From positions 21,042 to 85,041 of the forward strand of contig CACZJU010000016.1 in NCBI GenBank assembly GCA_902781515.1: a stretch of DNA of 64,000 nucleotides, given 5' to 3'. A program made the position numbers and the translations under genes. The notes beneath the pieces were generated by a model, which saw only the letters and a list, made by a program, of their open reading frames with translations, did no database searches and had not been told where the DNA came from. Shown in pieces: positions 17,582 to 41,762 of the stretch; positions within the stretch are counted from its first letter, which is position 1; each line of letters starts with the position of its first letter. The DNA is from an uncultured Bacteroidales bacterium. GTDB lineage: Bacteria > Bacteroidota > Bacteroidia > Bacteroidales > Bacteroidaceae.

Positions 17582-18174
17582 TGCGGTTCAACCTGTTTAG
17601 CGACACGCAACGACAGATGCAAGAACTTCTTCAGGAGACCCGCTCGTATGTGGGTCTTCAGAAGGAGGTTCTGGTGTTGGAGACTCGCGACAAGCTCTCC
17701 ATCATCCTCTCGCATCTGGCTATCGCCGTAGTATGTCTGGTGCTGGGAGGCATGGTGCTGCTGTTCTTCTCTTTCTTCCTGGCATACATCATCGGTCAGG
17801 CATTGGGCAACGTGGCTCTTGGCTTTGCATGCGTCACGGCCTTCGTCATTCTGTTGCTGATAGTTTTCTGGATGAAACGTGAGGCATGGGTGGTTCGTCC
17901 CATCAACAGCCTTACCGCTTCCTTGTTCGTTGTCAACGACGAAACCCTGACAAGCGAAAACGCAACAGAGAAACTGCGTGAAAGCCGCAGTCGCATGTCG
18001 GACAGCTTCGGACTTCTGGTCAACCCGTCAGACAAAGCGGAAGGCACCAATGCTAAGAGCATCAGCAATATGGTGAGTCGCGGCTTCGCCATTTACGAAG
18101 GACTGCGACTGGGATTGTCCATCGTACGAACCATGAGCAGCATATTTGGACGTCGCAAACGCCGCCGCAGATGA
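17581..18174 (+). CDS. Holin-like inner-membrane protein
   Basis: 197 residues with an amphipathic N-terminus, two close transmembrane helices (about 42-66 and 72-93) and a long polar, basic C-terminal tail ending RRKRRRR. It resembles the phage_holin_3_6 type of chromosomal membrane protein often paired with YtxH. There is no phage context, so a lysis role is unlikely. It overlaps the next gene by four bases (ATGA). Confidence 0.75.
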   Translation: MRFNLFSDTQRQMQELLQETRSYVGLQKEVLVLETRDKLSIILSHLAIAVVCLVLGGMVLLFFSFFLAYIIGQALGNVALGFACVTAFVILLLIVFWMKREAWVVRPINSLTASLFVVNDETLTSENATEKLRESRSRMSDSFGLLVNPSDKAEGTNAKSISNMVSRGFAIYEGLRLGLSIVRTMSSIFGRRKRRRR

Positions 18175-18374
18175 GTGACGGCAATTTCAATAGGGCTCTC
18201 CTACCCCACACTCCTTATCAAAGCGGATTGAAGGCTGGTAAGGCTATGGGCAGTATGCATGCTATTGAAGCCTTCAAGGACTATCTTGCGAAATTTCATC
18301 CTGAGCTCGACAACGAAAGTTTTCTTCAAAGGCTCGAAGATTTCCGTCAATTACTTTCCAACCGACTTCGCTAA
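18171..18374 (+). CDS. Small protein in the YtxH cluster, unknown function
   Basis: 67 residues, mostly helical by eye, with no transmembrane segment (MSDGNFNRALLPHTPYQSGL at the start). I do not recognise a family. The four-base ATGA overlap with the upstream membrane-protein gene and the matching strand argue that it is translated. Confidence 0.6.
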   Translation: MSDGNFNRALLPHTPYQSGLKAGKAMGSMHAIEAFKDYLAKFHPELDNESFLQRLEDFRQLLSNRLR

Positions 18375-18438: not shown

Positions 18439-18903
18439 ATGGAATACATGTCACAAGAGGGCTACGACAAAATCGTAGAGGAACTGCGCTATCTGGAACA
18501 GGTGGAACTGCCACGTGTGAAGGACGCTATTGCCGAAGCACGCGACAAAGGGGACCTGAGCGAGAATTTCGAATACCATGCAGCAAAGCGCGAACAGGGG
18601 AAACTTCTGAGCCGCATACGCTTCAAGCAGCGAGTGCTGGAGTTTGCACGTGTCATAGACACGTCGCGACTCGATGCCGACAGCGTGGGGCTCCTCAGTC
18701 GTGTGGAGGTCACCAACCTCACCACCAACAGCCGCATGACCTTCACCGTTGTCAGTCCTCACGAGGCAAACATGCGCGAGAACAAGATTTCCATCAAGTC
18801 CCCCATCGGACAGGCCCTGCTCAAGCATCACGCTGGCGACACTGTCGAGGTTCAAGTCCCAGCCGGCACCATCAAGCTCCGCATCGAATCCGTCACCCTC
18901 TAA
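18439..18903 (+). CDS. greA: Transcription elongation factor GreA
   Basis: 154 residues, the normal length. The N-terminal coiled-coil hairpin carries the tip segment DKGDLSENFEY with the acidic residues that reach the RNA polymerase active site; the C-terminal FKBP-like domain runs from about 80. GreA rescues backtracked polymerase by stimulating RNA cleavage. Start chosen at the ATG giving MEYMSQEGYDKIVEELRYL, typical of the family; a second ATG three codons on is also possible. Confidence 0.96.
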   Translation: MEYMSQEGYDKIVEELRYLEQVELPRVKDAIAEARDKGDLSENFEYHAAKREQGKLLSRIRFKQRVLEFARVIDTSRLDADSVGLLSRVEVTNLTTNSRMTFTVVSPHEANMRENKISIKSPIGQALLKHHAGDTVEVQVPAGTIKLRIESVTL

Positions 18904-18917
18904 CAATTTGTAGCAAT

Positions 18918-19054
18918 GTAGCAACGTAGCAACGTCGCATTAAGGTGTTTCCATATCTGCAGAAAGCTATATATATTTCCATAACTGCCTGATATAGAAA
19001 GATCCGCGGTTTGCATATCGAAAGGTGCTTAATGCTACGTTGCGACGTTGCTAC
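18918..19054. repeat. 26-bp inverted repeat enclosing 85 bp
   Basis: The arms at 18918-18943 and 19029-19054 match at 24 of 26 positions as inverted copies (starting GTAGCAACGT). The left arm continues into further copies of a GTAGCAACG word. It follows greA by 14 nt. It could fold as a long hairpin in the greA transcript or be a small non-autonomous mobile element; no coding frame lies inside. Confidence 0.7.
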
Positions 19055-19084
19055 AAAACCACGTTTTGCCCTCGCACCCTTGTG

Positions 19085-19233
19085 CAAGCCGCCCGTCTTA
19101 CGGCAATAAGACGCCCGTCTTACGGCGATAAGGTCTAGACCTTATGGTGATAGGTTCTAGAACTTATGCCCACAGGTTAACTTAACCTTTGTCGATAAGT
19201 TAACTTAACCTTTGCCCATAGGTTGCATAACCC
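19085..19233. repeat. Phased palindrome array, seven units at 22-23 bp pitch
   Basis: Palindrome centres fall at about 92.5, 114.5, 136.5, 158.5, 181, 204 and 226.5 (add 19000). Arms differ but remain complementary: TAAGAC/GTCTTA, AAGGTC/GACCTT, GTTC/GAAC, GGTTAA/TTAACC, GGTT/AACC. The 8-nt connectors are alike (CGGCAATA, CGGCGATA, TGGTGATA, TGTCGATA, TGCCCATA). No gene lies in 18904-19332; the array, the inverted repeat before it and a short AT-rich repeat near 19297-19330 are all it holds. Confidence 0.8.
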
Positions 19234-19332
19234 TTCGGCAGGAGGGATAGTAATGCAACGAAAGAGGCGGCCAGTGGTGGTCGTCTCTTTCGTTTTAAAT
19301 GATAAATATTAAATAATAAATGATAAATAATA

Positions 19333-20850
19333 TCATTGATGCTCGGGGCGGAGGAGGTCGCAGACGGTCTTGACGGGGTTGAAGGTTTCGAGGGGAACTT
19401 CAACGAAGACGGTGGACCAGTCGCTCATGGCTCCGTTCCAGAGGCCGGGCAGTTCGAGGGCTTTGAGTTCCTTGCCGCTCTTGCTCTTGTAGGAGATGAA
19501 ACCTGTGGCAGGGTCAACGAAGCGTGGAAGGTCGAACTTCTCGCCCTTGTAGTCGCGAATGCCGCAAACAAGGTCAACGGGGTTGAAGTGAGTGCCTTCG
19601 GTGAACATCTTCATGTATTCGGGATTGTTCTTGTCAATCTGACTGCTTTCGAGGATTTGCAACGAGATGCTGCCATCGGGGTTGTAGGCAAGGAATGGAC
19701 CTCCACCTGGTTCGCCCACATTCTTAACGACACCACATACGCGCATGGGGCGGTTCAGCTTCTTGCGCAGGTAGCTGACGAGTTCGGCATCCTCCAAATC
19801 CTTCAAGCCCGGCATATCGGTGCAGAGGTCGTGACGCACGAAACGTATCATTTCCTCAATCTGAGCGTGAGAATAGGCTCCAGTATCCAAGAGACGCAGA
19901 TAAGCAAAAGCCTTCGCCTGCAGCGATACGAGCACACCAGCTATCACCTGTTTCCAAGTCACCGTTACGGGTTTCAGTCTATCAGGCACAACATTATCGA
20001 TATTCTTCACAAAGACAATATCGCTCTTGAGGTCGCTAAGATTCTGAATGAGAGCACCATGACCACCCGGACGGAAGAGCAGCGAGCCGTCGTCCTGACG
20101 GAATGGCGTATTGTCCATATTGGCAGCAACGGTGTCCGTAGAAGGTTTCTGTTCGCTGAACGATACGTGATACTTAATCTTATATTTATTCTCGTATTCA
20201 GGCAGGATGCGCTCCACAAGAGCCTCGAAGAGCTCGCGATGTTCGGTGCTGACGGTGAAATGAACGTCGGCTTCACCACGCGACTGGGCATAGAGAGCAG
20301 CCTCCACGAGATGTTCTTCGAGCGGAGTACGAACCTCCTCGTCATAAGCATGGAACTGGAGCAAGCCCTTTGGCAACTGACCGTAATTCAGTCCTTCCTC
20401 GCTGAGCATAGCGCGAACCACAGCCTTGTAGTTGCCCTCGTCAATCAAGGCATCAACACCCATTCCCTCGCATACCTCGCAGGCATCGTCTAGAGCCTGG
20501 AAGAATGCAAACTTGTGAATGCCCTCGAAATACTGCTTCTCGGCTGGTTTCGTAGGCACATCGTAGTCGGCATCCAGAAACTCGAACATATCCTTGAACA
20601 TACGGCTGGCAGCACCAGAGGCAGGCACGAACTTCGTGATGTGATGCCCCTCGGCCTTGTAATCGTCCCAAGCCTTAACGTACTGCTTCTGAGCTGCATC
20701 GTCAATAGCCAAGATGCCGTTGCCAATGGCTGCTGCACCTGCCAAACGCAGGAATGGGAAACCTGTCTGAAAATCCTTCAACTGCTGGTTGATTTGCGCC
20801 TCGCTGATACCCTTGGCTTCAAGCTGCGCACGGTCTGTTGCTGTCAACAT
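19333..20850 (-). CDS. DUF4301 family protein
   Basis: 505 residues from the ATG at 20850 (MLTATDRAQLEAKGIS); the frame runs 10 codons further up but into the promoter. It matches DUF4301, a family found almost only in Bacteroidota. Conserved-looking stretches include KFVPASGAASRMFKDMF (near 80), RPGGHGALIQNL (near 260) and FLAYNPDGSISLQI. The Gly-rich pieces hint at nucleotide or phosphate binding, but no function is known. It is alone on the minus strand, divergent from relA. Confidence 0.85.
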   Translation of the reverse strand: MLTATDRAQLEAKGISEAQINQQLKDFQTGFPFLRLAGAAAIGNGILAIDDAAQKQYVKAWDDYKAEGHHITKFVPASGAASRMFKDMFEFLDADYDVPTKPAEKQYFEGIHKFAFFQALDDACEVCEGMGVDALIDEGNYKAVVRAMLSEEGLNYGQLPKGLLQFHAYDEEVRTPLEEHLVEAALYAQSRGEADVHFTVSTEHRELFEALVERILPEYENKYKIKYHVSFSEQKPSTDTVAANMDNTPFRQDDGSLLFRPGGHGALIQNLSDLKSDIVFVKNIDNVVPDRLKPVTVTWKQVIAGVLVSLQAKAFAYLRLLDTGAYSHAQIEEMIRFVRHDLCTDMPGLKDLEDAELVSYLRKKLNRPMRVCGVVKNVGEPGGGPFLAYNPDGSISLQILESSQIDKNNPEYMKMFTEGTHFNPVDLVCGIRDYKGEKFDLPRFVDPATGFISYKSKSGKELKALELPGLWNGAMSDWSTVFVEVPLETFNPVKTVCDLLRPEHQ

Positions 20851-20877
20851 AAGAATTAGATTTATTGTTAAGTATTG

Positions 20878-20885
20878 CAAAGATA
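20878..20885 (-). promoter_or_regulatory. Promoter -7 box of the DUF4301 gene
   Basis: TATCTTTG on the minus strand, 27 nt before the ATG. Divergent from the relA promoter, with ACGAATT heptamers between. Confidence 0.5.
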
Positions 20886-41473: not shown

Positions 41474-41660
41474 CGTGATTCCGTTTTAGTTTTTTATGGG
41501 TAAATGTCCTAAACTCTCTATATCTTTATTCTATAAAACTTTTTTTTAGGGGAAATACATTGAAAAGAAAAAATCGAGCATGTTTTTCCCTGATATACAA
41601 TATATTAAGCAGCTCTACATCGAATCCAAAATCTAGAAACTTCGTAAAAAAACCTTCGTT

Positions 41661-41762
41661 ACATTACTAATCTTTCGCCTCATGCATTAGTAATGTTTGA
41701 GGGGGCGCATTAGTAATGTTTGGGGGCTCGCATTAGTAATGTTTTGGCAGAAGATTAGTGGT
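41661..41762. repeat. Phased palindrome array, five units at 22-23 bp pitch
   Basis: Cores of the type CATTAGTAATG (arms CATTA/TAATG) are centred at about 41667, 41690, 41713, 41736 and 41758. The first is in inverted orientation and the last is degenerate. Connectors between units 2-4 are TTTG followed by a G-run. Apart from the terminator at 41453 and the promoter at 41913, no other feature was seen in the gene-free stretch 41369-41938. Confidence 0.8.

Follow-up and report, generated by a model that had tools for sequence, protein, structure and literature searches.

The window analysed here is a 64,000-nt stretch of contig CACZJU010000016.1 from an uncultured Bacteroidales bacterium, and at positions 19086-19233 it holds an array of seven palindromic units. 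Our best explanation, offered tentatively and with somewhat less than even confidence, is that this array is a member of a dispersed family of hairpin-capable DNA minisatellites whose units are copied and homogenised within genomes. Throughout the family the connector, the core and a near-fixed 22-bp step are conserved; the arms vary, change in pairs and tend to remain complementary, arrays of one genome resemble each other, and at a fixed chromosomal place whole units have been replaced. The general unit consists of a connector (ATYGCCAW), a 5-nt arm, a 4-nt core (often CACG) and a complementary 5-nt arm, making 22 bp in total, or 23 bp where the core is 5 nt instead of 4 nt.

The units of the window array measure 14 or 15 bp and the connectors between them 8 nt; the start-to-start steps of the units are 22, 22, 22, 22, 23 and 23 bp. 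The units and connectors, in window positions, are as follows.

Unit 1, 19086-19099, no strand assigned, AAGCCGCCCGTCTT, 4 of 5 arm pairs (imperfect).
Unit 2, 19108-19121, no strand assigned, AAGACGCCCGTCTT, 5 of 5 arm pairs.
Unit 3, 19130-19143, no strand assigned, AAGGTCTAGACCTT, 5 of 5 arm pairs.
Unit 4, 19152-19165, no strand assigned, AGGTTCTAGAACTT, 4 of 5 arm pairs.
Unit 5, 19174-19188, no strand assigned, AGGTTAACTTAACCT, 5 of 5 arm pairs.
Unit 6, 19197-19211, no strand assigned, AAGTTAACTTAACCT, 4 of 5 arm pairs.
Unit 7, 19220-19233, no strand assigned, AGGTTGCATAACCC, 4 of 5 arm pairs.
Six 8-nt connectors, minus strand, within 19100-19219: 19100-19107, 19122-19129, 19144-19151, 19166-19173, 19189-19196 and 19212-19219.

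Complementary bases occupy 31 of the 35 arm cells, each unit contributing five arm pairs. An earlier note on this DNA, made from the sequence alone, had described seven palindromes of 14-16 bp at a 22-23 bp pitch, with arms that change from unit to unit between similar 8-nt connectors. The count and the pitch were reproduced: seven unit starts were recovered, and the same chain search, run on 100 dinucleotide-shuffled versions of the window, yielded 21 chains of three, one of four and none of five or more. Besides the chain of seven, the real window contains two chains of three, which we took for chance. The palindromes and the 8-nt connectors stand as described; the units measure 14-15 bp, unit 1 is imperfect, and since units 4-7 have the inner arm TT/AA in common, the array comprises three complementary arm types and not seven. 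The family form of the connector, ATYGCCAW, lies mainly on the minus strand of the window array, as does its match to the covariance model described below. Single-strand folding of the array was better than that of shuffled sequences (z of -4.3 as DNA and -3.9 as RNA), which is what palindromes tend to show.

A BLAST search with the window array against its own genome gave 56 matches, and 36 loci were read. The connector was exactly 8 nt long at 124 of 125 junctions (consensus ATSGCSAT), in a count that permitted 6-9 nt and demanded palindromic units. For arm pairing, units were taken by their connectors alone with the arms left free, yielding 61 units of 14 bp and 35 of 15 bp, each distinct in unit plus connectors. 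Among the 14-bp units, arm position 4 was paired in 47 of 61 (mean of 2000 shuffles 21.2, maximum 33) and position 5 in 46 of 61 (mean 27.6, maximum 41). The 38 units distinct in either strand were paired at these positions in 22 and 23 cases, compared to 13.1 and 16.2 after shuffling. For the 26 neighbouring unit pairs with differing arms, the inner dinucleotides matched within the palindrome in 19 and 18 cases and across the connector in 4. By eye, some units at three loci (L025, L028 and L053) carry longer hairpin sequence in the palindrome centre, and similar inserts occur in two genomes of the genus; the palindrome centre may be an insertion target.

The pitch was evaluated with a scan at lags of 14-40 that assumed no palindromes and covered 406 kb, namely the window and stretches around one gene in several genomes, chosen because that gene holds an array in one genome. 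After short-period arrays were dropped, 35 tandem arrays remained, of which 29 have lag 22; lags 21 and 23 occur once each, and the other four arrays have lags of 14, 15 or 18.

A covariance model (R1) was built on three units with the pairs imposed, so its matches cannot test pairing; in the training alignment 86.4% of cells are paired, compared to 71.6% when shuffled and 30-45% when slid. The earlier note had called for a scan of related genomes and for a test of covariation against shuffled sequence. The second is answered by the own-genome counts above. For the first, R1 matches were obtained at E<=1e-3 in 52 of the 139 genomes of the genus, and at E<=1e-4 in 12 of 301 from the family (6 of 30 genera) and 2 of 393 from the order, the own genome being included in each count. 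The other order-level genome was G245, from a different family; at two of its loci (L236 and L240) there are arrays of AAGTACCCGTACTT whose connector is TTCCCG-like, and these may be distant relatives of the family or a parallel to it. In the R1-matched loci that were read, the arms enclosed by AAG and CTT are of many types, and a DNA search matched 10 of the 139 genus genomes, own included, several with other arms. The pattern CACG-N5-ATYGCCAW-N5-CACG had 368 matches in 20 of the 139, the own genome not among them, and its reversed control had none in the same 139 genomes; together, R1 and this pattern flag 61 genus genomes. When named genomes were scanned without constraint on the inner eight bases, at least 107 stretches were returned; among the matches listed (80), all were titled uncultured Bacteroidales or families within the order, and most came from the metagenome-assembled genomes RUG837 and RGIG6885. 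Carriers of arrays with the 22-base step are uncultured Bacteroidales, many of rumen origin.

The CACG pattern, which derives from the murE-mraY consensus given below, provided a second sample for pairing, of 57 distinct units from 30 loci; the arms were not used in choosing them, the genomes overlap with the murE-mraY set described below, and some units may be chance CACG sites. The five arm pairs matched in 38, 35, 36, 31 and 31 units, every count exceeding the maximum from 2000 shuffles (33, 30, 27, 24 and 30).

The family is also found at one recurrent chromosomal place. There, the array site is flanked by a Mur ligase gene and a GT4-family gene (Pfam), with ftsA nearby, and the two genes were therefore read as murE and mraY. 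We analyzed 30 loci, the best-scoring 30 of 130 genomes with the gene: 18 carry a lag-22 array, one a lag-27 repeat, ten have no array, and in one the stretch is missing. None of 20 further genomes, the own genome included, has a lag-22 array at this place. On an mraY protein tree, array presence needs six changes, compared to a mean of 9.1 in 500 shuffles, 17 of which were as low, with G054, whose contig ends there, coded as having no array and the lag-27 genome as having one. The lag-27 repeat, at L337 in G007, is built of 9-nt steps (CCTATAAGA-like) and takes the place of the 22-bp array.

Thirteen unit types from the murE-mraY place, related by descent and placed in register by the connector, have the consensus AA-N5-CACG-N5-ATTGCC; in this consensus set five of the 13 units (G052, G091, G024, G037 and G031) mixed two neighbouring copies, and 50 of 78 arm cells were paired. 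With exact copies the count is 51 of 78, compared to 24.1 (standard deviation 3.6, maximum 37) when the 3' columns were shuffled, and none of 5000 shuffles was as high. A centre between bases 9 and 10 gives 3.92 of 6 pairs, and the maximum for any centre in 2000 shuffles is 2.85. Pairing persists without near-duplicates (41 of 66 pairs; shuffled 19.4, maximum 31). The register was judged by us where the connector lacks GCC, and the seven types left when near-duplicates and judged registers are both removed, omitting G058, G037, G052, G091, G031 and G085, have 22 of 42 pairs (shuffled 11.6, maximum 21). The paired change of arms beside kept connectors, which the earlier note had read from the window array, is consequently seen beyond shuffles in the own genome, at the murE-mraY place and in the CACG-pattern sample.

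The same place reveals that units have been rewritten. Between genomes G085 and G088 the flanks of the murE-mraY array are identical at 1311 of 1332 and 2603 of 2661 positions (about 98%), and the units differ save for a common start, AACG. We compared the best 22-mer identities of 28 arrays from nine genomes: the median was 17 of 22 within genomes (44 pairs) versus 14 between genomes (334 pairs), 13 at the murE-mraY place (21 of 28 possible pairs, one array being below the scan threshold) and 15 at or near the M16 place described next (28 pairs). Arrays are closer to others of their own genome than to those at the matching place elsewhere, and such likeness within genomes is the mark of concerted evolution. 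As a separate observation, two or more dissimilar 22-bp unit types are present in one genome at L300 and L301 (G085) and at L302 and L303 (G092); those of G085 include CCCTATAGGG and GGGACGTGTCCC.

Two arrays lie in frame within protein genes. The first is in an M16 peptidase gene (Pfam) of G124, and the corresponding linker was read in nine close relatives: a lag-22 array of different units is present in six (G050, G024, G092, G039, G016 and G052), and by eye G085 has none, while G112 and G007 have longer inverted repeats. The second is within a CobB/CobQ-like gene (Pfam). A GC-rich stretch, L259, was also flagged as an in-gene candidate and was excluded from the count.

The replacement of units, together with likeness within genomes, suggests that units are copied between arrays. 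We propose that whole units would be copied from array to array of one genome through a single strand folded into a hairpin, the folding step being replication slippage, annealing or the work of an enzyme; foldable units would be copied best, and this could give rise to arm sequences specific to each species. We regard it as probably a selfish element or one that is neutral for its host, and little harm would be expected because the arrays lie mainly between genes.

Several results weigh against this explanation. The clearest result against strict complementarity is the uneven pairing in the named-genome scan, where 33 distinct inner 8-mers (among the matches listed) had 23, 9, 29 and 3 pairs from outside to centre; in RGIG6885 one arm position is mostly unpaired. 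The claim of the earlier note that the arms stay complementary accordingly holds beyond shuffles, but in some species only in part. Pairing above shuffles was not found for the 35 own-genome units of 15 bp, because nearly all are one type, and single genomes other than the own had little or no excess because each has few types. The excess was small for the nine CACG-pattern units with connectors on both sides. Tested without a register, only 3 of the 30 lag-22/23 arrays of the lag scan are palindromic at P<=0.05, and the murE-mraY units give a combined P of 0.17; in the seven-type set, a centre at 20.5 scores nearly as high, and the best centre was reached by 11 of 2000 shuffles. The 22-bp pitch is not accounted for by copying alone, and the fact that many species keep arrays at one place may indicate a host function. 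No mobilising or copying enzyme was identified in a search for Y1 transposases: none was found in the own genome (86% complete), and across the genus they occur (E<=1e-6) in 12 of the 52 genomes with R1 matches and in 21 of the 87 without (Fisher P 1.0).

A real but minority possibility is that the arrays are binding sites of a symmetric (dimeric) DNA-binding protein, aligned every two helical turns. In this proposal the specificity of the protein would shift between species, the sites would follow, and the symmetry of the homodimer would keep the arms complementary. It has to be taken seriously as a rival, since it would account for the pitch, which at 22 bp is about two turns and hardly varies; arms that differ by genome, the absence of strand bias and the recurrence of lag-22 arrays at the murE-mraY place (18 of 30 loci) also fit it. 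Such a protein is difficult to reconcile with several arm types within one genome and even one array, and with a conserved connector and core, the reverse of a fixed half-site; moreover, each change of specificity would have to be tracked by many arrays.

Rather on the unlikely side, we consider a neutral minisatellite whose units multiply by slippage and whose palindromes are a product of mutation: during replication, template switching at quasi-palindromes would rewrite one arm from the other. This is a known way for quasi-palindromes to become better palindromes (PMC7202029), and the partial, species-variable pairing would be in keeping with it. The gene contexts also agree, as most arrays with a called context are intergenic; part of these calls come from loci picked for arrays and may overlap. 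In one tally, 42 arrays are in co-directional gaps, 27 between converging and 16 between diverging genes, and 14 at edges. What template switching leaves unexplained is the 22-bp pitch with a conserved connector and core, and the replacement of units between near-identical flanks. It does affect the suggestion of the earlier note that paired changes reflect selection for hairpins or for symmetric proteins: the paired change stands, but selection does not follow, as template switching could do the same and the arms of some species are complementary only in part.

We think it unlikely that the family is a self-rewriting DNA element, in which an enzyme or recombination route would read the connector and the pitch and copy one hairpin unit genome-wide, replacing arms blockwise. 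If this were true, arms that are a species' own at the same sites could function as a mark of self or in the manner of a drive element.

An RNA element, with tandem transcript hairpins acting on termination, stability or translation of neighbouring genes, appears quite improbable to us. Variable complementary stems with a conserved core and linker are the usual RNA pattern, the RNA strand of the window array folds better than shuffles, and the murE-mraY array would be co-transcribed; a loose motif count there finds more GCC-form connectors on the sense strand in 12 of the 18 arrays and a tie between the strands in the other 6. Elsewhere, however, the connector of 41 oriented arrays in co-directional gaps has no strand bias (22 sense, 19 antisense; P 0.76), and a hairpin-capable unit without general strand preference is therefore placed at the DNA level. 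The own-genome arm mismatches (13 A-C, 7 G-T and 6 other, among 84 cells) give no sign of RNA wobble, since G-T is not above A-C. An Rfam search gave three tRNAs only and no match over the window array, and a scan of 18900-19340 for intrinsic terminators, defined as a GC-rich hairpin followed by a T run, had no sites under its rules. A viral origin is unsupported, as one AAG-type connector pattern had no match in IMG/VR.

A conserved linker and core with freely changing complementary arms is unusual for DNA. Because arrays are rewritten between near-unchanged flanks, the speed and mechanism of concerted evolution of a bacterial repeat become directly measurable, and a family this large, found even between cell-wall genes and within protein genes, can be used to test hairpin-dependent copying versus protein-driven turnover of sites.

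The surroundings of the window array and the other family array of the window are as follows.

18439-18903, plus strand: greA (GreA by Pfam), left neighbour of the window array.
19333-20880, minus strand: DUF4301 gene (Pfam), right neighbour of the window array.
18904-19333, plus strand: composite intergenic repeat that holds the window array, with a second copy on another contig (L010).
63525-63582, no strand assigned: second family array in the window, AAGGTCTATACCTT / AAGACCTGCGTCTT / AAGGTCTAGGTCTT (covariance-model match G000:C16:84566-84623).

With greA on the plus strand and the DUF4301 gene on the minus strand, the window array lies in the gap between converging genes. The second copy of the composite is 85.5% identical over 442 alignment columns and has the same order of unit types with two units fewer. 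To the left of the array, within the duplicated composite, 18917-18944 and 19028-19055 form a 28-nt inverted repeat (93% complementary, 83-nt loop) that contains 8-nt repeats. Directly to the right, 19257-19294 is a 17-nt inverted repeat with a 4-nt loop, absent from the terminator-scan list; it may be a terminator that the two converging genes share. A further tandem array of palindromic units (GCATTAGTAATG) is present at 41660-41759, with a pitch of about 23-24 bp and a different connector, and TACTA-centred palindromes resembling its units flank several family arrays.

The window array's own chromosomal place is mostly not conserved. Among 30 loci with the DUF4301 gene, greA adjoins it in the own genome only, and the G019 locus stops at the gene. 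A small open reading frame (18171-18374 in the window) starts at most 240 bp from the end of the DUF4301 gene in seven relatives (G110, G044, G118, G025, G059, G103 and G008), where the gap between the two is without greA; it holds a lag-22 array with other units in G118 (0.86), a weak one in G025 (0.64) and none in the other five. Lag-22 arrays of further unit types (CCGTCGACG and CGCCAGTGGCG) were seen downstream of the DUF4301 gene at L181 (G118) and L201 (G026). Neither genome is among those matched by R1, so the family is wider than R1 indicates.

The family was not previously described in the literature searched (open-licence papers), and the statement of the earlier note that no named element has this design agrees with that search. 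Like CRISPR (clustered regularly interspaced short palindromic repeats), the arrays have regular short repeat units, but that assignment was rejected for want of a constant repeat with unique spacers. The design is indeed the opposite of a CRISPR, as the earlier note had put it: it is the palindrome that varies, and units of one array often have it in common. Repetitive extragenic palindromic (REP) sequences carry a conserved tetranucleotide at the foot of the hairpin, and bacterial interspersed mosaic elements (BIMEs) are bound by gyrase, IHF or Pol I. With these the family has in common dispersed, intergenic palindromic units in many copies, conserved linkers and a mosaic order of palindromes and linkers between genes; it differs in its 14-15-bp units on a 22-23-bp grid and in arms that are not conserved. 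A REP/RAYT (REP-associated tyrosine transposase) system was rejected, there being no linked Y1 (RAYT-type) transposase. Palindromic elements of Rickettsia are likewise found in frame within protein genes and are reported to measure about 150 bp (PMC10969869); the in-frame copies in the M16 peptidase and CobB/CobQ-like genes are alike in this respect, whereas the family consists of arrays of 22-23-bp units that are mostly intergenic. The nearest known system is BrickBuilt of Porphyromonas gingivalis, a minisatellite and miniature inverted-repeat transposable element with 23-nt tandem units and no spacers (PMC4596501). BrickBuilt has a leader, a tail and IS5-like terminal inverted repeats and has been described from P. 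gingivalis and P. gulae; an inverted-repeat search of 18700-19600 found no pair bracketing the window array. Palindromes and paired arm change are not described for BrickBuilt in the available portion of that source, and the family is set apart from it by description. The likeness is in dispersed, tandem, intergenic units of about 23 nt (22-23 bp here, with the exceptions inside genes), in occurrence within Bacteroidales, in imperfect copies that vary by locus and in predicted folding (PMC4596501).
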